This document shows, in pieces, positions 3,640-31,485 of a stretch of DNA of 32,678 nucleotides. Source of the stretch: a virus. Each line of letters opens with the position of its first letter. Position 1 is the first letter of the stretch. Where the stretch lies: IMG/VR virus record IMGVR_UViG_3300037847_005281, positions 5,080 through 37,757 of that record. One strand, 5' to 3'. Under the pieces are notes generated by a model. The model saw nothing but the letters and a program-made list of their open reading frames with translations. It had not been told where the DNA came from and did no database searches. The translations under genes and the position numbers were made by a program.

Positions 3640-3987
3640 ATGAAAAAAATAAGCATAATCGGACTGCTAGTAGCAGTCTTCTTTTCTGGTGCCGTAGTGG
3701 CAGAAGAAACAAACGATATCTCTTGGGCATTAACTCTTGAGAGACAAACAGAAGCCAATGCAAACACTGGCGAACTAATGGGAACTAAATCATTGGCAGG
3801 AATTGATATTTCAGCAGGTGGGTTATGGGACATTGACAAATCAGGTCAAGATTTTATTGCTCTGAACAAAACAATGTTGAACTTTAGTCATTCATTATCT
3901 GACCAAGCAACTTTGTATATAAAGAATGACTTTGATACAGAATTTGTCAGAACTGAGTCAACTGTAGGATTAAAAATTACATTTTAA
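3640..3987 (+). CDS. exported protein, outer-membrane/beta-strand type
   Basis: The ATG at 3640 follows a strong ribosome site (AAGGAGG, 7 bases upstream) and gives a 115-aa product. Residues 1-22 form a signal peptide (MKK, hydrophobic core, AVVAEE cleavage region). The mature part alternates polar and nonpolar residues and ends in phenylalanine (VGLKITF), as outer-membrane beta proteins do, but it is far too short for a full porin. An early promoter directly upstream suggests action soon after infection; alteration of the envelope or superinfection exclusion is a possibility only. No specific family recognised. Confidence 0.7.
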   Translation: MKKISIIGLLVAVFFSGAVVAEETNDISWALTLERQTEANANTGELMGTKSLAGIDISAGGLWDIDKSGQDFIALNKTMLNFSHSLSDQATLYIKNDFDTEFVRTESTVGLKITF

Positions 3988-3991
3988 TTTG

Positions 3992-4020
3992 TTGACAAAC
4001 ACGTTGCTATAGTGTATAAA
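3992..4020 (+). promoter_or_regulatory. sigma70 promoter of the tmRNA
   Basis: TTGACA at 3992-3997 and TATAAA at 4015-4020 are 17 bp apart. The -10 hexamer is also the first six bases of a late box (TATAAATA, 4015-4022), so one site could serve both host and phage-modified polymerase with almost the same start point near 4028. Confidence 0.8.
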
Positions 4021-4022
4021 TA
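4015..4022 (+). promoter_or_regulatory. T4-like late promoter box overlapping a sigma70 -10
   Basis: A perfect TATAAATA is superimposed on the sigma70 -10 element of the tmRNA gene. The overlap would allow tmRNA synthesis throughout infection. Confidence 0.55.
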
Positions 4023-4027
4023 TAGTA

Positions 4028-4310
4028 TGTTAACGTTGAAGCAACGTAGACATATACTGGACCTGGGGGCAGTACCCAGCGGCTCCACCAAAATACATTG
4101 AGTCATAGAGGTTGTAGAAGGCTTGACTATTGTTATTTAAACTCAGTGCGTTTCGGCGGGGCCGAACTAGGATCGACAGGTATGAAAGCGAAGTGGAGTT
4201 ATCCGTGGTGACCTACGTTATTCGGTCAAAAACTATAAATGCAAACGATAATTTTGCAAATGAAGATTTAGCCTTAGCGGCTTAATCATTCGGGGTTGGC
4301 AACTGACCTG
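4028..4310 (+). ncRNA. ssrA: two-piece (permuted) tmRNA
   Basis: tmRNA frees stalled ribosomes and adds a degradation tag. The gene has the alphaproteobacterial permuted order. The acceptor piece comes first and ends in CGGCTCCACCA at 4080-4090. The intervening segment is about 4091-4157. The coding piece starts with GGGGCCG at 4158. GGGGCCG pairs with CGGCTCC as a 7-bp acceptor stem with a G-U at the third pair, the alanine identity element. A T-arm (CTGGG/CCCAG) precedes the acceptor strand. The tag frame begins at GCA 4241 and stops at TAA 4283-4285, encoding ANDNFANEDLALAA (AANDNFANEDLALAA with the charged Ala). This resembles alphaproteobacterial tags and ends in the LAA signal read by ClpXP. 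Outer ends are approximate. It has its own promoter, and a ClpX gene lies about 9 kb away. Confidence 0.93.
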
Positions 4311-4337
4311 GCAACAGAACTAGTTGCACTTTTATTT
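4311..4337 (+). terminator. hairpin with T-rich tail after tmRNA
   Basis: GCAAC (4311-4315) and GTTGC (4323-4327) form a 5-bp stem with a 7-base loop, followed by ACTTTTATTT. It is a modest intrinsic terminator or processing hairpin ahead of the ferredoxin gene, whose message may come from read-through. Confidence 0.45.
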
Positions 4338-5455: not shown

Positions 5456-5997
5456 ATTTTGAAAAGAAAGACTTTGGATATCCTGTCTGGACAGTAGATG
5501 AGGTATTCTTAGAAGGTAAGTTGGCAGACGAAATTTTAAAACAATCAGAACATTTACCATATGTACCAATGGCTGGTATGAGAACTGATAAGACTGGAAA
5601 ACGAATTTGGATGAACCATTATGACTATCCTGCATTTAAAGAAGTATGTATATTTTTTGATAGCAATTATGTTAAACAAAAATTTAGTGATGAATGTGGA
5701 AAAGACTTTACTAAATTAGGTACAAGAATTGAACTTTGTAAAGATGCTAAAGGAAGTTGGTTACATAATCATTTTGACGATAAAGCAAAACTATTTACAT
5801 TACAAATATATCTATCAGATACAGATACAAGTACAAGTTTTATGAAAACAAATACACCTGCTAAAAAGAACTCAGGTTGGTTTTTCGCTAATACAGGAAC
5901 AGAATTGCACGGACTAAAACCACTGTTAAATGATAGAGTTAGTATTATCGTAAATTATGTTGATGAAACTTGGAGAGATAGGTCAGTAATCGTATAA
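5452..5997 (+). CDS. 2OG-Fe(II) oxygenase family protein
   Basis: These enzymes use Fe(II), O2 and 2-oxoglutarate to hydroxylate a substrate. The 181-aa product, starting at ATG 5452 rather than an in-frame TTG at 5437, contains the double-stranded beta-helix signature: H-x-D in LHNHFDDK, a distal histidine in GTELHGLKP and an arginine eight residues later in DRVSIIVNYV that would bind 2-oxoglutarate. Such proteins are common in T4-like marine phages, but their substrates are mostly unknown. It lies between the HPG-motif protein and an FkbM methyltransferase, suggesting modification of a sugar or peptide (inference). Confidence 0.8.
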   Translation: MNFEKKDFGYPVWTVDEVFLEGKLADEILKQSEHLPYVPMAGMRTDKTGKRIWMNHYDYPAFKEVCIFFDSNYVKQKFSDECGKDFTKLGTRIELCKDAKGSWLHNHFDDKAKLFTLQIYLSDTDTSTSFMKTNTPAKKNSGWFFANTGTELHGLKPLLNDRVSIIVNYVDETWRDRSVIV

Positions 5998-6716
5998 TGT
6001 ATAAAGATAGCAATCAACGAACAAAAGATTACTTAGATACTTTTAATCAAGATAAAGTTATACAAAATTTGGTTGGAACGGATAGCCCGGTAATATTTGA
6101 TATTGGCGCAAATATAGGACAAACAATAGAGAAACTAAAGAAAGTTTGGCCTAAGTCTACAATACATAGTTTCGAACCTTTACCAGACGCATATGAAAAA
6201 CTCACGTTTTGGTCAGACTTTTGGAAATCAGTACATACTTATAATATAGCACTTGGTTCAAAAGACGGAACACAAGAGTTTAATGTAAGCAAACATCAAC
6301 CAATGTTAAGCAGTTTCTATGAACTTAATGAAAATAGCAGAGATAGTATTGCAGTAAACAGACCAGAACCTGGTCATAAAGATTTCTTAGAATCTAGTAA
6401 AATACAAGTAAATGTAAGAACTTTAGATAGTTTCACAAAAGAACACAATATACAACATATAGATATAATCAAAATGGATGCTCAAGGAGCCGAACCAGAG
6501 ATATTAGAGAACGGTATAGATTCGCTTAAAAATACAAGAATTATACTAACTGAACTTAATTTCTATGACTTGTACAAGAAAAGTTGTTCTTTCTATGATT
6601 TAGAAAAAACCCTGATTCCCTTGGGTTTCGAACTTTTTGATATTGCTCACGTTAGCAAAAACCCTATGAATGGTCGTACAGATTGGGTAGAAGTAATTTA
6701 TTTCAAAAAAAATTAA
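5997..6716 (+). CDS. FkbM-family SAM-dependent methyltransferase
   Basis: The 239-aa protein has the class I methyltransferase motif I IFDIGANIGQT, the acidic ribose-binding strand HSFEP and the FkbM-typical IDIIKMDAQGAEPEIL segment. Family members methylate hydroxyl groups of sugars or natural products. It starts at the TAATG junction with the oxygenase and is the last gene before a long noncoding stretch. A role in modifying phage or host glycans is plausible but not shown by the sequence. Confidence 0.88.
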   Translation: MYKDSNQRTKDYLDTFNQDKVIQNLVGTDSPVIFDIGANIGQTIEKLKKVWPKSTIHSFEPLPDAYEKLTFWSDFWKSVHTYNIALGSKDGTQEFNVSKHQPMLSSFYELNENSRDSIAVNRPEPGHKDFLESSKIQVNVRTLDSFTKEHNIQHIDIIKMDAQGAEPEILENGIDSLKNTRIILTELNFYDLYKKSCSFYDLEKTLIPLGFELFDIAHVSKNPMNGRTDWVEVIYFKKN

Positions 6717-6724
6717 AAAAGGTG

Positions 6725-6753
6725 TTGACAAACCGAATCAAATTTGCTATATT
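6725..6753 (+). promoter_or_regulatory. sigma70 promoter of the orphan structured RNA
   Basis: TTGACA at 6725-6730 and TATATT at 6748-6753 are spaced by 17 bp. The predicted start near 6760 is exactly the first base of the RNA's closing helix. Confidence 0.85.
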
Positions 6754-6759
6754 AGTAAC

Positions 6760-6979
6760 ATAGCATATAAAGAGTTATAAACTTTATATTGTAGTGCATC
6801 GAAGAGGCTGTTACCAGACGGTCGAAGATGACTAGTTAGGGGTGGTACCCAGGCTCAAAGTCTAGCGACCGAGGGTCACATCGCTCTACCGAGCGGAACT
6901 AGGTTCCCTGGATTTAGAATGGTATCTGAGTCGAGGGGTTGGGGGTGAAACCAAGTCCCTCCTACTTTGCTATATTTTT
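6760..6979 (+). ncRNA. structured noncoding RNA of about 215 nt, family unassigned
   Basis: No credible reading frame covers this segment. ATAGCA (6760-6765) pairs with TGCTAT (6968-6973), closing the whole RNA. Inside are ATATAAA/TTTATAT with AGTT/AACT (6766-6789), CGGTCG (about 6819) with CGACCG (about 6866) extended by CTAG/CTAG, a GGGT/ACCC hairpin at 6840-6850, AGCGA/TCGCT, GCTC-TACC-GAGC, and a 3' arm GAGGG/CCCTC enclosing TTGG/CCAA. An ATTTTT tract follows. Start, closing helix and U-tract agree with the promoter, so the limits are fairly firm. It lacks RNase P core motifs and a tmRNA tag; 6S-like or marine environmental RNA families remain possible. There is no protein-coding gene on + downstream, so it is not a leader. 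Confidence 0.75.
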
Positions 6980-7003: not shown

Positions 7004-7060
7004 GAGGGTTGAAAATACCATATAAAAACTCACTTTCATTTTCATTTATTTTCAACCCTC
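7004..7060. terminator. 14-bp inverted repeat, likely bidirectional terminator
   Basis: GAGGGTTGAAAATA (7004-7017) is the exact reverse complement of 7047-7060, with 29 bases between. It directly abuts the 9-bp hairpin. Placement between convergent transcripts suggests bidirectional termination or a transcript-end barrier; the loop is unusually long for an intrinsic terminator. Confidence 0.5.
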
Positions 7061-7083: not shown

Positions 7084-7171
7084 TGGCTTTAGGGGGAGGA
7101 TTCGAACCTCCACGTAACTATGTTACAACGGATAAACAGTCCGCTATGTCTACCAATTCCATCACCCTAAA
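7084..7171 (-). tRNA. class II tRNA with GUU (Asn) anticodon
   Basis: The minus strand folds into a full cloverleaf of 88 nt. The acceptor is TTTAGGG/CCCTAAA with discriminator G73 and an encoded CCA. The D-arm has GG in GAATTGGTAGA. The anticodon stem is GCGGA/TCCGT with loop CTGTTTA, hence GUU. A long variable arm GTAAC-ATA-GTTAC and T-arm GGAGG-TTCGAAT-CCTCC complete it. The body and long variable arm are those of tRNA-Leu-type (class II) molecules, while the anticodon and G73 are asparagine identity elements; bacterial tRNA-Leu normally has A73. U37 is also unusual, since position 37 is nearly always a purine. It begins 13 nt after the stop of the AsnRS-like gene, so both probably share a transcript. 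Confidence 0.9.
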
Positions 7172-7183
7172 CTAGCAAGTATA

Positions 7184-8008
7184 TTACGAATTTTTATCTA
7201 AAGCAGAAATCATTCTTGTCATACCGATTCCACCACCAACTCTTGGGAAGAAATCGAATTCTAAGAACTTTTCTAATTCTGCCTCTACTCTTTCTTTAGA
7301 GAATAGTTTATAAAGCAATTCTGAATATTCACCATTTGTGATTGTGTGAAAAGTATCACGCATCATTTCTTTATCACAAGAACGTTCCGCGGAACCTATT
7401 GTTTCCATACCTCCTAAGATAACATCTATCTTCTTACTTGTAGCACCACCTTCGTGTCTACTCATATTCCAGAACGGAGATGTCATTTCAGGAAAGTCTG
7501 TAATCATTGTAGCACCGAATTCTTCAAACATTTTAGTTTCGTGTTCGGCTTCCATTTCTGTCATTGCATCTAGACCAAAATGTTTTTGCCAGTCTGCATA
7601 TGTTCTTTCTTCTGGTTTAGGGAATTCTAAGTATTCACATAATTCATATTCCATCTTTTTCAAATCATCATATCCACCTGGAAATTCAAATTCAAACATA
7701 GGGAAGATTATATCGTGTCTACCTGGAATTGCATTTGGTTCTTGTCTATAGGACGTGGAGACACAAAAAAAGCCCTTTGCATCGGGCTTTGAGAGTAATT
7801 CGTGTTCTAACCACATTTGGCCTGTTTGGGGAAGGGGCCAGACTTGGCCTGCATAATTGTATGTTGCTACATTGAACGGATCTTCACAAGCCGCCAATAT
7901 ACTTAATCTGTTTTGAGTATGTACTTCTTCAAAACCTTTATCCAAAAAAAATGACCTTAAAAGGCCAACTGTTTTTGTAAATTTTGTAGGATTTATTAAT
8001 TGCGTCAT
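7184..8008 (-). CDS. AsnRS/AspRS-like class II synthetase catalytic core
   Basis: This 274-aa protein is a class II aminoacyl-tRNA synthetase fold of the Asp/Asn/Lys group without any anticodon-binding OB domain. Motif 2 is at about residues 84-109 (SYRQE, then GRHDIIFPMFEFEF; R88, E90, RH 97-98). The middle has IDVILGGMETIGSAERS, corresponding to the GGSQRE region of AsnRS. Motif 3 is GGGIGMTRM at 258-266, with the ATP-binding Arg265. Known stand-alone cores of this type include archaeal asparagine synthetase (AS-AR) and bacterial AsnA, which make Asn from Asp, ammonia and ATP, and other synthetase paralogues. The co-transcribed GUU tRNA makes a tRNA-linked role plausible. A minus-strand late box is 78 bases upstream of the start. 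Whether it charges tRNA, amidates Asp or modifies something else cannot be told from sequence. Confidence 0.82.
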   Translation of the reverse strand: MTQLINPTKFTKTVGLLRSFFLDKGFEEVHTQNRLSILAACEDPFNVATYNYAGQVWPLPQTGQMWLEHELLSKPDAKGFFCVSTSYRQEPNAIPGRHDIIFPMFEFEFPGGYDDLKKMEYELCEYLEFPKPEERTYADWQKHFGLDAMTEMEAEHETKMFEEFGATMITDFPEMTSPFWNMSRHEGGATSKKIDVILGGMETIGSAERSCDKEMMRDTFHTITNGEYSELLYKLFSKERVEAELEKFLEFDFFPRVGGGIGMTRMISALDKNS

Positions 8009-8266: not shown

Positions 8267-9229
8267 ATGGACGCATTAACTTTATGGATGGCACTAGGTT
8301 TTCTATTTGCCGCATATTCAGTAATCGCAAACGATTCAGTACAAACTCTTGGTACTTGGATTGCATCAAACAACGAAAAATTTAATTGGAAGATAATGTG
8401 GGGAGCCGCAAGTGCGGTACTACTTTATACTTTGTGGTATGGTTGGACAACTAATGGTGGAGATATTAGTTACGGACGATTGAACAAAATTCCATTTCAA
8501 GAAATTCAATGGTATCACGCCGCCGCACCAGGCTTACTATTGGTATTAACAAGAATAGGTGTACCAGTAAGTACAAGTTTCTTAGTGCTAAGTGCATTTG
8601 CTAGTACGTTTGTATTAGAGAAGATGCTAGTCAAATCAATGATGGGTTATGCAGTTGCGGCCGTGGCGGCATATGTAATCTGGATTGGTGTTACTAAAAT
8701 ACTTGATGAAGCAAAACCAGTCGCTGAAAATCATAAAGTATATTGGCGAGTAGGTCAGTGGATAACAACTGGCTTTTTATGGTTCACTTGGTTATCACAC
8801 GATATGGCAAACATTGCCGTATTCTTACCAAGAGAAATACCATTCGATTTAATGGTAATGGTAAGTGCAGTATTTGTATTTGGCTTAGGTTATATATTTT
8901 ATACTGGTGGTGGTAAAATACAAAACATCGTAATTGAAAAACATAATACACGTTATGTAAGAAGTGCTACAATAATTGATTGTGTATATTTTCTAATTCT
9001 TTGGTTCTTCAAAGAACTGAATGATATACCAATGTCAACAACTTGGGTATTCGTTGGTTTACTTTGTGGTCGTGAACTTGCAATGGCAACAATGACAGGT
9101 AAAGAAAAGTTTAGAACTGTTTTCCCTCTTGTAACTAGAGACTTCATAAAGATGATGATTGGTTTAGGTGCAAGTGTTGGTGTAGTTTTATCTATTCACT
9201 ATATAATTGTACCCAATGGATTACACTAA
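8267..9229 (+). CDS. PiT-family phosphate permease-like protein
   Basis: The 320-aa integral membrane protein has about ten hydrophobic segments and the internal duplication of PiT transporters. ANDSVQTLGT (21-30) and LSHDMANIAVFLP (about 177-188) correspond to the paired GANDVANAxGT signatures. PVSTSFLVLSAF (100-111) and IPMSTTWVFVG (about 256-266) correspond to the paired P-[IV]-STTH motifs, with the usual His replaced by F and W. PiT proteins import inorganic phosphate, often as metal phosphate, using a cation gradient. The degenerate first signature and the missing His leave the substrate uncertain. A late box and a structured leader precede it. Phosphate uptake during infection of a phosphate-limited host would make sense (inference). 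Confidence 0.75.
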   Translation: MDALTLWMALGFLFAAYSVIANDSVQTLGTWIASNNEKFNWKIMWGAASAVLLYTLWYGWTTNGGDISYGRLNKIPFQEIQWYHAAAPGLLLVLTRIGVPVSTSFLVLSAFASTFVLEKMLVKSMMGYAVAAVAAYVIWIGVTKILDEAKPVAENHKVYWRVGQWITTGFLWFTWLSHDMANIAVFLPREIPFDLMVMVSAVFVFGLGYIFYTGGGKIQNIVIEKHNTRYVRSATIIDCVYFLILWFFKELNDIPMSTTWVFVGLLCGRELAMATMTGKEKFRTVFPLVTRDFIKMMIGLGASVGVVLSIHYIIVPNGLH

Positions 9230-13168: not shown

Positions 13169-14440
13169 TTGTCAGACAAAAAAGATTATCATTGTTCGTT
13201 TTGTGGAAAACACAAGAATGAAATAAAAACTTTGATTGCAGGTCCGGCTAGTTACATTTGTAACGAGTGTATAGACCTTTGTCATTCAATCGTACACGAA
13301 AGAAAAAAATCTGACAAGATAGGTAAAAATTTAGACGGCGGCATTCCTACTCCCGATGAAATCAAAGAATTTTTAGATTTACACGTGATAGGACAAGCGG
13401 AAGCAAAAGAAGTCCTGAGTGTCGCCGTTTATAATCACTATAAAAGAGTAAATTTACCAGAAGACGATAACGATATAGAATTAGAAAAATCTAATGTTAT
13501 GATGCTTGGTCCATCAGGAACAGGTAAAACATTACTAGGTAAAACAATCGCAAAATTTTTAGAAGTACCATTTGCACAAGTTGATGCAACAACATTAACT
13601 GAAAGTGGTTATGTTGGTGAAGATGTTGAAAATGTAATTCAAAGATTATTAATGAATGCAGATTTTGATATTAAGAAAGCAGAACAAGGTATTATCTATA
13701 TTGACGAAATTGATAAAAAAGCAAAGAAAGGCGAAAACGTTTCAATAACAAAAGACGTATCAGGTGAAGGTGTTCAACAAGCATTACTAAAAATTGTTGA
13801 AGGTACTGTAGTACGTGTTCCACCAGGAGGTGGTCGTAAACACCCAGGTGCTGATATGCTTGAAGTTGATACAAGTAAAATTTTGTTTATTGTAGGTGGA
13901 GCCTTTGTTGGATTAGATAACATCATTAAGAAAAGATTAAACTCAAGTGGATCAATTGGATTTGGTGCAAATGTAGTAGCACCTGAAGAAGATAAAATAC
14001 AAGTTTCAAAAGAAGTATTAGCAGAAGATGTTATTAAGTATGGTATCATACCAGAGTTTATGGGAAGATTTCCTATCTTAGTAGGAATAGATGATTTAAC
14101 AAAAGACGAATTAACAAGAATTTTAACAGAACCTAAAAATAATCTTGTTGCACAATTTAAAAAGATTTTCAAATTAGATGGCGTAGAATTGAATTTCACA
14201 AAAGACGCAATCAAAGAAATAGCAAATCAGGCAAGTGAAAACAAAACAGGAGCAAGAGGACTACGTAGTGTATTAGAAAAATCATTATTAAAAATACAAT
14301 TTACATTACCTAAGTTACGAAAGAATGCAGGTCTTCAATCTGTAGAAATAACGGCTGATTTTATTAAAAGCAACAAAGAACCAATAATGGTATTTAAGGA
14401 ACCAAAATCAACAGGGACATCAAAAAATATAAATGAATAA
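13169..14440 (+). CDS. clpX: ClpX ATPase subunit of the Clp protease
   Basis: ClpX unfolds tagged proteins and feeds them to ClpP. The 423-aa protein is full length (E. coli 424). A zinc-binding domain (Cys 9, 12, 31, 34) is followed by Walker A GPSGTGKT (114-121), pore loop GYVG (147-150), Walker B IIYIDE (175-180), RKH loop (223-225) and the ClpP-contact loop IGFGA (263-267). All functional motifs are intact, so it could dock on host ClpP. The start is TTG at 13169, with AGAGAAAG upstream; no in-frame ATG is near. It overlaps infC, which overlaps rpsU. With a phage tmRNA (tag ending LALAA) and ClpS in the same window, a dedicated substrate-selection system is likely. Confidence 0.96.
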   Translation: MSDKKDYHCSFCGKHKNEIKTLIAGPASYICNECIDLCHSIVHERKKSDKIGKNLDGGIPTPDEIKEFLDLHVIGQAEAKEVLSVAVYNHYKRVNLPEDDNDIELEKSNVMMLGPSGTGKTLLGKTIAKFLEVPFAQVDATTLTESGYVGEDVENVIQRLLMNADFDIKKAEQGIIYIDEIDKKAKKGENVSITKDVSGEGVQQALLKIVEGTVVRVPPGGGRKHPGADMLEVDTSKILFIVGGAFVGLDNIIKKRLNSSGSIGFGANVVAPEEDKIQVSKEVLAEDVIKYGIIPEFMGRFPILVGIDDLTKDELTRILTEPKNNLVAQFKKIFKLDGVELNFTKDAIKEIANQASENKTGARGLRSVLEKSLLKIQFTLPKLRKNAGLQSVEITADFIKSNKEPIMVFKEPKSTGTSKNINE

Positions 14441-15889: not shown

Positions 15890-15895
15890 TATGTA

Positions 15896-15967
15896 CGTTC
15901 AGGCAATATAGCCCGGAAGTAGCATAATGTGAAGGAACGCACTTAAACCTTTAACCGGGAGAGTGCA
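15896..15967 (+). promoter_or_regulatory. glutamine-II (downstream-peptide) riboswitch
   Basis: The element has the conserved core of glutamine riboswitches: CGTTCA at 15896, GGAAGTAG at 15915-15922, and GAAGGAACGC at 15931-15940. CGTTC pairs with GAACG (P1), GGC with GCC (15902-15913), and CCCGG (15912-15916) with CCGGG (15955-15959) as a pseudoknot crossing P1. CCGGGAGAG includes the ribosome site of the 32-aa ORF at 15968, so glutamine binding would hide it. GCACT (15939-15943) with AGTGC (15962-15966) gives a possible alternative fold. The pattern and the small ORF behind it match the class found in marine cyanobacteria, cyanophages and ocean metagenomes. Confidence 0.85.
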
Positions 15968-16182: not shown

Positions 16183-16626
16183 ATGACAAGAAACGCACTA
16201 TCAATTTTTAACCAGTTACGTCCTGTAACTGTAGGCTTTGACAATATGTTTGACCATTTCGAATCTATGTTCGATGGAGACGTATTCTCAGTACCACAAG
16301 TAAACTTTCCACCATACAACATCGTAAAGACTGGTGATTTTACTTATGATGTAGAACTAGCACTTGCTGGTTACTCAAAAGATGACATTACAGTAGATTA
16401 TGCTGATAATGTACTAACTGTAAAATCAATCAAGAAATCTGATGAAAGTAAAGATGAAGACGGTGTTCTTCATAGAGGTATCGCAAAAAGATATTTCTCA
16501 AAAGCATTTACTATCGCAGATGATGTTGAAGTAAGAGGTGCAGAGTTGAAAGATGGACTTCTAAAAATCTCTATGGAAAGAATTGTTCCAGAGGGTAAAA
16601 AGCCTAGAAGTATCGACATCAAATAA
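16183..16626 (+). CDS. Hsp20/alpha-crystallin small heat shock protein
   Basis: Small heat shock proteins hold unfolding proteins for later refolding. The 147-aa protein is IbpA-like: N-terminal MTRNALSIFNQLRPVTVGFD, an alpha-crystallin domain from about residue 43 (PPYNIVKTGDFTYDVELALAGY, DDITVDYADNVLTVK) and a C-terminal SIDIK with the I-x-I motif used in oligomerisation. Full length. A strong AAGGAG ribosome site precedes it, with dual sigma70 and late promoters, and an intrinsic terminator follows. Hsp20 genes are frequent in T4-like marine phages and may help head or tail assembly. Confidence 0.94.
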   Translation: MTRNALSIFNQLRPVTVGFDNMFDHFESMFDGDVFSVPQVNFPPYNIVKTGDFTYDVELALAGYSKDDITVDYADNVLTVKSIKKSDESKDEDGVLHRGIAKRYFSKAFTIADDVEVRGAELKDGLLKISMERIVPEGKKPRSIDIK

Positions 16627-17876: not shown

Positions 17877-18629
17877 ATGACAAATCGATCCCAACAAGGG
17901 TATCGAAAATACCAGAACTGGAATGGTTCACGTTGGTTATATACACGTGAACAATCACAATGGCATTTTGATACTAAATCAGATACACAAGACTTTCAGC
18001 CTATTTGCCAATTTATTGGTGATTGGGATTTTTCTGTACAGAAAGCAATGAAACGTGTTGTTGATTGTACTTGGGCAAATCGTAATTATTTCTCAAAAAA
18101 TCCAGATGAAAATAAGAAACCGATGTATTCTGCAAGTGCGGAAGAAATGGACTTGTTTAGAGCGGGTGCAAATCCAAAACAAGAAATATTTCAACGTGCG
18201 GTAGCAGACGATATTCCCATATTTCAAAAAATTGCTAGTCACTTAAAACTAGAAGATCCATCAGTTAAATTTCATAATCAAAGACCTGGACAAACTCTTA
18301 ATTTACATATTGATAATTTTGCTGGTCGTAAAGAACGTGGCAATAGTTTCAAAGAAATAAAAGTAGACAGAAATCCTGACGCAATGAGAAGATTTGTTGT
18401 GATGCTAGATGATTGGAAACACGGACAAGTGTTTATGTTAGGAAATCAAGTTTGGCATCGTTGGAACAAAGGCGATTGTATAACTTGGAACTGGCGTGAT
18501 ATTCCACACTGTACAAGTAATATGGGTTGGGATAATAGACCTATGTTACAGATAACAGGTTGGACTACAAAAGAAACTATTGAAGTTGTAAACAACGGCA
18601 GTTTTGAAAAGAAAGTAGAGATATGTTAG
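17877..18629 (+). CDS. 2OG-Fe(II) oxygenase-like protein A
   Basis: The 250-aa protein carries the 2-oxoglutarate oxygenase signature: metal ligands H144-x-D146 (LHIDNF), distal His211 (DIPHCTSN) and R221 ten residues later (DNRPMLQ) for binding 2-oxoglutarate. It is clearly paralogous to protein B at 20065-20781; both share DNFAGRKERGNSF, MLDDWKHGQVF and NMGW-x-x-RPMLQ. Its stop overlaps the tctA start by 7 bases, so oxygenase and transporter are translationally coupled. The pair flanking a permease is striking. Substrate unknown; 2-oxoglutarate use is inferred from the motif. Confidence 0.8.
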   Translation: MTNRSQQGYRKYQNWNGSRWLYTREQSQWHFDTKSDTQDFQPICQFIGDWDFSVQKAMKRVVDCTWANRNYFSKNPDENKKPMYSASAEEMDLFRAGANPKQEIFQRAVADDIPIFQKIASHLKLEDPSVKFHNQRPGQTLNLHIDNFAGRKERGNSFKEIKVDRNPDAMRRFVVMLDDWKHGQVFMLGNQVWHRWNKGDCITWNWRDIPHCTSNMGWDNRPMLQITGWTTKETIEVVNNGSFEKKVEIC

Positions 18630-20065
18630 AACAAATTTTAGTACTATTAGCAGGTACATTTTATGGTCTCGTTGTAGGTATTATTCCAAGTGCAGGTGCA
18701 ACAACAGGATTAGTTGCTTTGTTTTCTTTTATTGGATATTTTTCAGGAGACCCATATTTAGGAGTAATATTCTGTATGGCAGTTGTTGCCGCCAGTACAA
18801 CTGGTGATACATTTACTGGTGTACTATTAGGAATACCAGGAGCAAATTCAGCCGCGGCTACTATGGTAGACGGATACCCATTAGCAAAACAAGGTAAGGC
18901 AACTTATGCCATTACGGCGGCAGTTACAACATCAACAGTAAATGGATTAATTTGGGGTACATTGACTTTTGGATTATTGCCCTGGTACATACAATTAATG
19001 ATGATATTTGGTATACCTGAATTGTGGGCATTCACAATGTTGGCACTTGCTTGTGTTGGATTTATATCAAGCAAATGGTGGGTAAGAAGTTTAATCGCTA
19101 TTGTAATAGGTTTCTGTTTAGGATATATTGGTACAGATCCATATACAAACGCAGATAGATGGACATTAGGTTGGGCATACTTAGGTGATGGATTACAACT
19201 TATGCCAGTAGTTGCAGGTTTATTTGCTTTTCCAGAAATTATTGCAGGCTTAAGAAGAAGTGATAAAATTTCTGCGGTACCAATGGACAACTTATTTCAA
19301 CAAACAGTTGATGGTGCAAAAGCAACTTGGAAACATAAATGGGACGCATTACGAGGTGGGGCTATAGGAGCATTTATTGGTTTACTTCCTGGCTTAGGTG
19401 GAGCAATGAGTGATTGGTTAGCATATGGTTCTACAGTAGCCGCCCATCCAAATGATAAGTTTGGTAATGGTAACATCAAAGGTGTTATTGGACCAGAAGG
19501 ATCTAATAATGCACAAAAGGCTACATCTATGATACCAACTGTTTTATTCGGTATACCAGGTGCAAGTTTTGCCGCGGTGTTGATGGGCTTGTTTATGTAT
19601 CTTGATTTTGAATTAGGTACACCAGACTTAGCATATGATACAAAATTCTTTGATAGTTTGTTTTATGGATTTATGTGGGCAACTGTACTTTGTGGAATTT
19701 TATGCTTGATTTTTACTAGATATATTGCTATGATAAGTTATGTACCTTACAAATATTATTTTCCGATTCTTGTAGCATTTATTATTTGGGCTTGTGTTCA
19801 ATATACAGGTGGTTGGGAAGATTACGCAGTATTGGCAGGTATGACAGTATTGGGACTTATTTGTAGAAAATGGAAATTTAGTAGACCAGCAATGTTAATG
19901 GGCTTCATTCTTTCAGATAGAATTGAAGGCTTATCAATACAAATGTTAAACTTATATGGTTTTGACAAATTAATGGATAGACCGATATTTTTAGGTTTAA
20001 TGGGATTAATAGTAATCGTTTTTATATGGGGAATATTTAGACGAGGAAAATTGGAGTATGCATAA
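18623..20065 (+). CDS. tctA: TctA-like permease of a tripartite tricarboxylate transporter
   Basis: TctA is the large membrane subunit of TTT transporters, which import citrate and other carboxylates with a periplasmic binding protein. The 480-aa protein is full length with about 11-12 hydrophobic segments. It has both family repeats: GLVVGIIPSAGATTGLVALF near the N-terminus and FIGLLPGLGGAMSDWLAYG near residue 250, plus GVIGPEGSNNAQKATSMIPT and LFGIPGASFAAVLMG. It is coupled to oxygenase A upstream and B downstream (TAATG). A TctC-like binding protein follows B. No standard TctB of about 150 aa is seen; the 76-aa membrane protein at 21835 is the nearest candidate. Confidence 0.92.
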   Translation: MLEQILVLLAGTFYGLVVGIIPSAGATTGLVALFSFIGYFSGDPYLGVIFCMAVVAASTTGDTFTGVLLGIPGANSAAATMVDGYPLAKQGKATYAITAAVTTSTVNGLIWGTLTFGLLPWYIQLMMIFGIPELWAFTMLALACVGFISSKWWVRSLIAIVIGFCLGYIGTDPYTNADRWTLGWAYLGDGLQLMPVVAGLFAFPEIIAGLRRSDKISAVPMDNLFQQTVDGAKATWKHKWDALRGGAIGAFIGLLPGLGGAMSDWLAYGSTVAAHPNDKFGNGNIKGVIGPEGSNNAQKATSMIPTVLFGIPGASFAAVLMGLFMYLDFELGTPDLAYDTKFFDSLFYGFMWATVLCGILCLIFTRYIAMISYVPYKYYFPILVAFIIWACVQYTGGWEDYAVLAGMTVLGLICRKWKFSRPAMLMGFILSDRIEGLSIQMLNLYGFDKLMDRPIFLGLMGLIVIVFIWGIFRRGKLEYA

Positions 20066-30196: not shown

Positions 30197-30475
30197 ATGC
30201 AAGAACCAACACACGAATTTAAGTTTAAATTTAGTACACGTGAGCAATTTTACGGAATAGTTAGATTACTTAATAACGAGTGTGGAAAAGGCAACTGGAC
30301 TATCAAGGGCAAAGTGCTTAAAGGTCTTAAACGTATTGAAGAAATGAATGGTATGTATTCTGGTATGTCAACTTATGTTCCTTATGTTGAGAAAACAGTA
30401 GTAGTTCCAAAAAAGCAAGACCACGTAGAATCAATGTTGCTTTTTATATATAAAGATGATAGAATTAAACAATGA
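30197..30475 (+). CDS. hypothetical protein, 92 aa
   Basis: A basic soluble protein (EFKFKFSTREQFYGIVRLLN, then GNWTIKGKVLKGLKRIEEMN). It has a good ribosome site (AAGGAG) and stands between an early promoter and uvsE, which it overlaps by 4 bases (ATGA). Probably early. No family recognised. Confidence 0.68.
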   Translation: MQEPTHEFKFKFSTREQFYGIVRLLNNECGKGNWTIKGKVLKGLKRIEEMNGMYSGMSTYVPYVEKTVVVPKKQDHVESMLLFIYKDDRIKQ

Positions 30476-31485
30476 CAGGAAGAGTAGGATTTGCGTGTAA
30501 ATATTTACACGATGACCAAAACTTAAAACCGAAAGTTCTCAAAGAGATTCAACAGCCTCTTAACTTTCGAGGTACCACAATCAAATGGTTACGTGAGAAC
30601 AATGACAATGCACAAGAAAAAGTTTACGAACTTATTGAGCATAATCTAAACGCAACAGAAAATCTAGTTGATTACGTTTCAAGTTTACCTATGAACCAAC
30701 GTATGTTACGTCTTGGTAGCGATATGTTACCTGCATACACAGAACCTAACTTTGGTCACTTATCAAAGACAAATTACATTACGTCAAAAGTTGCAGATAA
30801 ACTAAATACTATTGGGATTAAAGCAAGGAACAATCAGGTTCGTTTGTCAATGCATCCTGGTCAATTTTGTGTTCTAGCATCTGATAGAGAAGAAGTTGTT
30901 AAGAAAAGCATAGAGGAGTTTGAATACCATGTTGATATCGCAAGGTGGATGGGTTACGGCAAGTCGTTTCAAGACTTCAAAATCAATGTACACATCTCAG
31001 GCAGACAAGGTCCAGAAGGCATCAAAAACGTCCTCGGAAAACTCTCGCCGGAAGCAAGAAACACAATCACAATCGAAAACGAAGAAAATGCGTGGGGTCT
31101 CGATTCTTGCCTAGAACTAGAGAAACACGTTCCACTTGTTTTGGATATTCATCACCATTGGTGTAATAGTAACGGTGAATACATTTCTGCGAATGATGAC
31201 CGTGTTAAGCGGGTTATTGATAGTTGGCGTGGGGTGCGGCCCACGTGTCACTATTCCGTCTCAAGGGAAGAACATTTACCAGAACATAGAACAGATATCA
31301 AACCAGACTTCACAAGTTTGTGTGAGCAAGGCCTTAACAAACAAAAACTCAGAGCCCATAGTGACTATATGTGGAACACAGCCGTCAACGAATGGGCAGG
31401 AACCTTCCGTGAAAATTTCGATATTATGGTAGAGGCTAAAATGAAAAATTTGGCTAGTATACCTTTTGAGGAGGAAACAAGATAA
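30472..31485 (+). CDS. uvsE: UV damage endonuclease UvsE
   Basis: UvsE nicks DNA 5' of UV photoproducts to start excision repair. The 337-aa TIM-barrel protein shows the family features: RVGFACKYLH at the N-terminus, MLRLGSDMLPAYT, VRLSMHPGQFCVL, TIENEENAWGLDSC and VLDIHHHWC with metal-binding Glu and His residues. Length is typical. UvsE occurs in several marine T4-like phages of sunlit water. It is in a sigma70-driven, probably early, unit. Confidence 0.94.
   Translation: MTGRVGFACKYLHDDQNLKPKVLKEIQQPLNFRGTTIKWLRENNDNAQEKVYELIEHNLNATENLVDYVSSLPMNQRMLRLGSDMLPAYTEPNFGHLSKTNYITSKVADKLNTIGIKARNNQVRLSMHPGQFCVLASDREEVVKKSIEEFEYHVDIARWMGYGKSFQDFKINVHISGRQGPEGIKNVLGKLSPEARNTITIENEENAWGLDSCLELEKHVPLVLDIHHHWCNSNGEYISANDDRVKRVIDSWRGVRPTCHYSVSREEHLPEHRTDIKPDFTSLCEQGLNKQKLRAHSDYMWNTAVNEWAGTFRENFDIMVEAKMKNLASIPFEEETR

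Follow-up and report, generated by a model that had tools for sequence, protein, structure and literature searches.

The structured RNA at positions 6760 to ~6979 (+ strand) of the window, the 32,678-nt stretch of a 37,757-base IMG/VR virus record that was analyzed here, is best explained as a free-standing noncoding RNA (ncRNA) gene of the manA family in a T4-like marine phage, probably acting in trans. We put the probability of this reading at about 70%. Sequence analysis showed a sigma-70-type promoter, a covarying fold whose closing helix begins at the predicted start point, and no same-strand open reading frame (ORF) of at least 80 aa for ~1.3 kb, and in most relatives of the subfamily, a predicted intrinsic terminator and a separate late promoter cut the RNA off from the next gene. 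The neighboring genes are similar to genes of T4-like marine phages, and by sequence the window belongs to such a phage, kin to Pelagibacter phage Mosig. Mosig EXVC030M was the only strongly similar annotated phage found by BLASTN with the RNA core (74.9% identity, E = 8e-22). Its RNA, at 108164-108371 and unannotated in the record, is ~75% identical over the core and has its promoter at the same position, but it is followed by a same-strand rubrerythrin gene.

At the curated threshold, Rfam 15 identified manA RNA (RF01745) at 6766-6971(+) with a score of 64.5 bits (cut-off, 55.2; E = 2e-14), and the match is full length, with model positions 1-192 complete. Both a score above the curated cut-off and a covariation-supported structure, as expected of a family member, were found. 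No other family, including 6S, IMES, RNase P, and tmRNA, matched the RNA in Rfam at E ≤ 1, and these four identities were rejected. The sequence-only reading had correctly seen no RNase P core or tmRNA tag, but its description of the RNA as unclassified and 6S- or IMES-like was wrong because of the match to RF01745. Its word "orphan" holds for a discrete structured RNA with a sigma-70-type promoter and no downstream gene but not in the sense of unclassified; the search of all Rfam models led clearly to a known family, so the RNA is real but not novel. A 6S-like RNA that binds the host RNA polymerase would share with the window RNA a length of ~200 nt and a free-standing gene with its own promoter. 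This is nevertheless highly improbable, as there was no 6S match at E ≤ 1 and the covarying fold is multi-branched rather than a single long hairpin with a central bubble.

RF01745 is filed in Rfam as type Cis-reg. Weinberg et al. (2010) regarded both the RNA nature of manA and its cis-regulatory role as certain and a riboswitch function as probable; they listed it from marine metagenomes, cyanophages, and gammaproteobacteria and placed it in potential 5′ untranslated regions (UTRs) of sugar, nucleotide, ibpA, and photosynthesis genes (PMC2864571). Later phage papers keep the cis-regulatory label, one of them adding that the regulatory role is still to be verified (PMC9964418; PMC12197685). 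In an expression study of P-HM2 that counted intergenic reads, the passage concerned does not mention a manA RNA (PMC5082946). The window RNA resembles the family in its full-length model match, in its 5′ hairpin, closing stem, and multi-branched core, and in its occurrence in marine T4-like phages. It differs in having no same-strand gene directly behind it, in the terminator or convergent context of its clade, and in an extra covarying closing helix of its subfamily that lies outside the Rfam model. The subfamily scores ~45-76 bits on RF01745, compared to 124-186 bits in four isolated cyanophages.

The structured RNA is ~215-220 nt long, its start being placed at 6760 by the promoter spacing and the closing helix. 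This helix, P0, which the sequence-only reading had picked out, pairs ATAGCA (6760-6765) with TGCTAT (6968-6973). Both strands covary in relatives, where variants such as ATAAGC/GCTTAT, ATATGC/GCATAT, and ATAAGT/ACTTAT occur, and the mean longest helix was 6.88 compared to 6.02 with swapped partners (maximum of 500 swaps, 6.47). Inside it lie a 5′ hairpin (ATATAAAG/CTTTATAT) at 6765-6789 and a core multi-helix domain at 6791-6965, which is closed by 6791-6794/6962-6965. At least six internal helices had been proposed, and ten have covariation support. As had also been noted, there is no reading frame: the RNA contains no ORF of 80 aa or more. The U-tract at 6975-6979, which had been taken as the end of the RNA, is real but is not directly behind a short hairpin, and the 3′ end is therefore uncertain.

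Relatives were gathered by protein-neighbor searches and by scanning viral contigs for the core motif TTAGNGGTGGTRCYCAGGC, which together yielded at least 53 distinct RNAs for alignment. RNAalifold returned 44 pairs, 27 of them with compensatory changes on both sides, and standard pairs filled 98.8% of the 2332 cells across these pairs (53 aligned RNAs, among the matches listed). The covariation score was 0.421 compared to 0.142 in shuffled alignments (none of 500 shuffles reached the observed value) and no more than 0.070 with the structure slid by 1 to 3 columns, which rules out a chance fold. The minimum free energy is -72.5 kcal/mol (z = -2.5). A conserved UACCA loop and a conserved UGGUA loop (6842-6846) may contact each other, but both sides are invariant. 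Since the loci share the search motif and many are kin, the counts given here for relatives do not represent independent events.

The promoter occupies 6725-6753 (+) and, exactly as had been claimed, consists of TTGACA (-35, 6725-6730) and TATATT (-10, 6748-6753) with a 17-nt spacer; a TG before the latter makes it an extended -10 promoter. It has 11 of 12 consensus matches and was the top-scoring site in the 3 kb scanned (5.5-8.5 kb). The spacing puts the predicted start point at A6760, the first base of the closing helix, which also agrees with the sequence-only reading. An FkbM-type methyltransferase gene (5997-6716, +) stops 8 nt before the -35 hexamer. The promoter keeps its position and hexamers in relatives: TTGAC with TATATT, TATAGT, or TATAAT recurs at a single position in 74 of the 96 complete loci among the matches listed, a set that contains a few motif matches that are not this RNA (e.g., L106 and L215). 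In the 31 distinct promoters whose spacer is 17 nt, the information content reaches ~2 bits per base at most hexamer positions, compared to <0.5 bits at most inner positions of the near-random spacer. A promoter of its own at a fixed, conserved position, as expected of a free-standing ncRNA gene, is therefore present. A cellular origin was rejected on a scan of the genome_contigs set, in which 14 exact motif matches were found and the promoter was correctly placed only in the marine MAG contigs L220, L221, and L222, which are possibly phage contigs binned with bacteria.

On the downstream side, the window copy has the U-tract and an inverted repeat but no canonical terminator. The repeat (7004-7060), with perfect 14-bp arms, lies between convergent units. 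In the close relatives L003, L004, L006, L008, and L084, a long-stem terminator with a T-run takes its place, and by sequence this is a terminator shared by the convergent units. Beyond the repeat are two genes on the opposite strand, a tRNA-Asn(gtt) at 7084-7171 and a protein with a class-II aminoacyl-tRNA-synthetase core-like domain (PF00152) at 7184-8008. The order methyltransferase, promoter, RNA, and convergent gene is characteristic of the window type; a convergent downstream gene is also found in L003, L004, L006, L008, and L175, and in L003, L004, and L008 the whole order recurs with the PF00152 gene. No same-strand ORF of 80 aa or more was found for ~1.3 kb on the 3′ side of the RNA. 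Since the next one starts at 8267, past the two convergent genes, the usual cis control is excluded for the window copy. The Cis-reg type implies a location in the 5′ UTR of a protein gene on the same strand; this location belongs to the annotation and not to the model, and the window copy does not have it.

Other features of the window were recorded. The PF00152 gene product is 274 aa long, belongs to phrog_29758, and has no further Pfam domain; its gene is 12 nt upstream of the same-strand tRNA-Asn(gtt). This core has at least 590 matching IMG/VR stretches and is annotated as "tRNA ligase" in P-SSM2, P-SSM5, and P-SSM7. A permuted (two-piece, alpha-type) tmRNA is present at 3973-4330 (+), 2.4 kb upstream of the RNA, with the ARAGORN tag ANDNFANEDLALAA. 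A glutamine riboswitch (RF01739) at 15894-15943 (+) lies shortly before an Hsp20 gene (16183-16626). Host-like genes include those for SufE (413-811), a ClpX-like ATPase (13169-14440, named from sequence), a TctA tricarboxylate transporter subunit (18623-20065), and a UvdE endonuclease (30472-31485).

Several arrangements were apparent among the relatives. First, of 77 distinct complete loci among the matches listed, 43 have a predicted intrinsic terminator directly behind the closing helix, compared to 3 of 385 random windows; its start lies at +130 to +160 relative to the core motif. Behind it, 38 of these 43 loci (among the matches listed) have the T4-type late promoter ATAAATA (background, 10 of 430). 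Second, gp23-type loci have a capsid gene, called gp23-like on the basis of its sequence, upstream of the RNA and its terminator, and structural genes downstream. In three loci, a freshwater-2 RNA (RF02980) was seen after the manA terminator and before the structural genes (L148, 4425-4507; L156, 12660-12742; L177, 7469-7545). Third, in seven Rfam-scanned loci (L090, L101, L107, L116, L152, L169, and L203), the RNA, with no promoter, lies 10 to 16 nt behind a permuted tmRNA, and from this spacing the two apparently form one transcript; aragorn places a tmRNA before the manA RNA in further loci. Finally, the Mosig-type clade has no simple terminator that we could find, and a same-strand gene starts within ~10-100 nt. 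Because this may be a rubrerythrin, peroxiredoxin-like, or gp32-like gene, it is the downstream gene that varies and the RNA that stays.

The Mosig-type placement speaks for the established view, according to which manA regulates metabolic genes in cis from their 5′ UTRs, perhaps as a riboswitch aptamer, and the window copy is an orphan whose gene was lost or changed. The Rfam type and the potential 5′ UTR placement in Weinberg et al. (PMC2864571) also favor this view, as do the cyanophage copies upstream of gp32, transaldolase, Hsp20, and other genes. We consider it unlikely, although not negligible, on four grounds. Promoter and fold are kept even in the window copy and its close relatives, where the next gene is convergent; most subfamily relatives have a terminator and a late promoter before the next gene; some copies adjoin a tRNA or tmRNA rather than a coding gene; and the downstream genes are unrelated and swapped while the RNA stays. 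For a riboswitch, an expression platform coupled to the aptamer would be expected, whereas the relatives have their terminators outside the closing helix and the window copy lacks a same-strand gene that it could control. The terminator arms were also no more complementary to the RNA (6.30) than arms swapped between loci (6.34), and no antiterminator pairing was seen between these arms and the RNA in the relatives. This argues against a switching terminator, and a transcription-attenuation riboswitch was rejected.

The cyanophage-type copies, which are out of reach of BLASTN, were found with the Rfam model, and a second scan gave 97 complete loci. A promoter with at least 10 of 12 matches is directly upstream in 92 of these 97, compared to 76 of 1940 control windows. 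A simple terminator was found in 13 of the 97, and a tRNA starts 5 to 19 nt downstream in 9. The downstream proteins form many clusters that are unrelated to one another; gp32-like proteins (15) are the most frequent, followed by transaldolase-like proteins (8) and a small unknown protein (8). In many of the loci, a same-strand ORF begins within 10-100 nt, and a cis role is therefore possible for these copies. Among the isolated cyanophages P-HM1, P-SSM2, P-SSM4, S-SSM7, and S-CREM1, four of five resemble the window copy in having a sigma-70-type promoter directly upstream; the fifth copy (S-CREM1) is inside a tRNA array, flanked by tRNA-Leu and tRNA-Asn at a spacing of 0-1 nt. Their neighbors differ: the RNA is found after gp23 in P-HM1, as in the gp23-type relatives, directly before tRNA-Gly in S-SSM7, and elsewhere between regA and a purL-like gene or after pstS.

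That promoter and RNA stand together before so many unrelated genes would also suit a mobile cassette, in which the promoter and a structured, stabilizing 5′ leader drive any gene behind them and sense nothing. This is improbable, since many copies have a terminator or a convergent gene and thus drive nothing, and since the loops are conserved far above the needs of a stabilizing leader. For the free-standing gene, the following course may be proposed. The host RNA polymerase would transcribe the RNA early in infection, early expression being suggested by the host-type promoter. The transcript of the window copy would end at the U-tract or at the inverted repeat shared with the convergent unit, and the product would be a stable RNA of ~220 nt, or up to ~300 nt. 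Across the contexts described above, the 3′ end would come either from termination, at the RNA's own or a convergent terminator, or from processing at an adjoining tRNA. Once made, the RNA would function in trans, and its partner is probably a factor of the host or the phage. Since manA RNAs are repeatedly coupled to tRNA genes and to permuted tmRNA, a search for this partner would best begin with the translation machinery; we infer both the trans action and the link to translation from gene neighborhood alone. Judging from the gene order, the RNA may be read through into the next gene or have a cis role in the Mosig-type clade and in many copies of the cyanophage type.

The family is thus an already known one, manA, and it is the arrangement that is new. 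For the subfamily of the window, it is doubtful that RF01745 deserves its cis-regulatory label. The metabolic roles given to manA in phage papers were inferred from the neighboring gene, and if manA is a separate RNA gene, these inferences fall. A broader proposal, which we offer tentatively, is that the whole manA family consists of free-standing phage ncRNAs, transcribed early by the host polymerase, coexpressed or coprocessed with tRNAs and tmRNA, and acting in trans on translation during the takeover of marine bacteria. Isolated phage-host pairs with manA exist in Mosig and Pelagibacter HTCC1062 and in P-HM1 and Prochlorococcus MED4. If the free-standing reading is true, abundant marine phages would carry a large structured RNA as a gene of its own.
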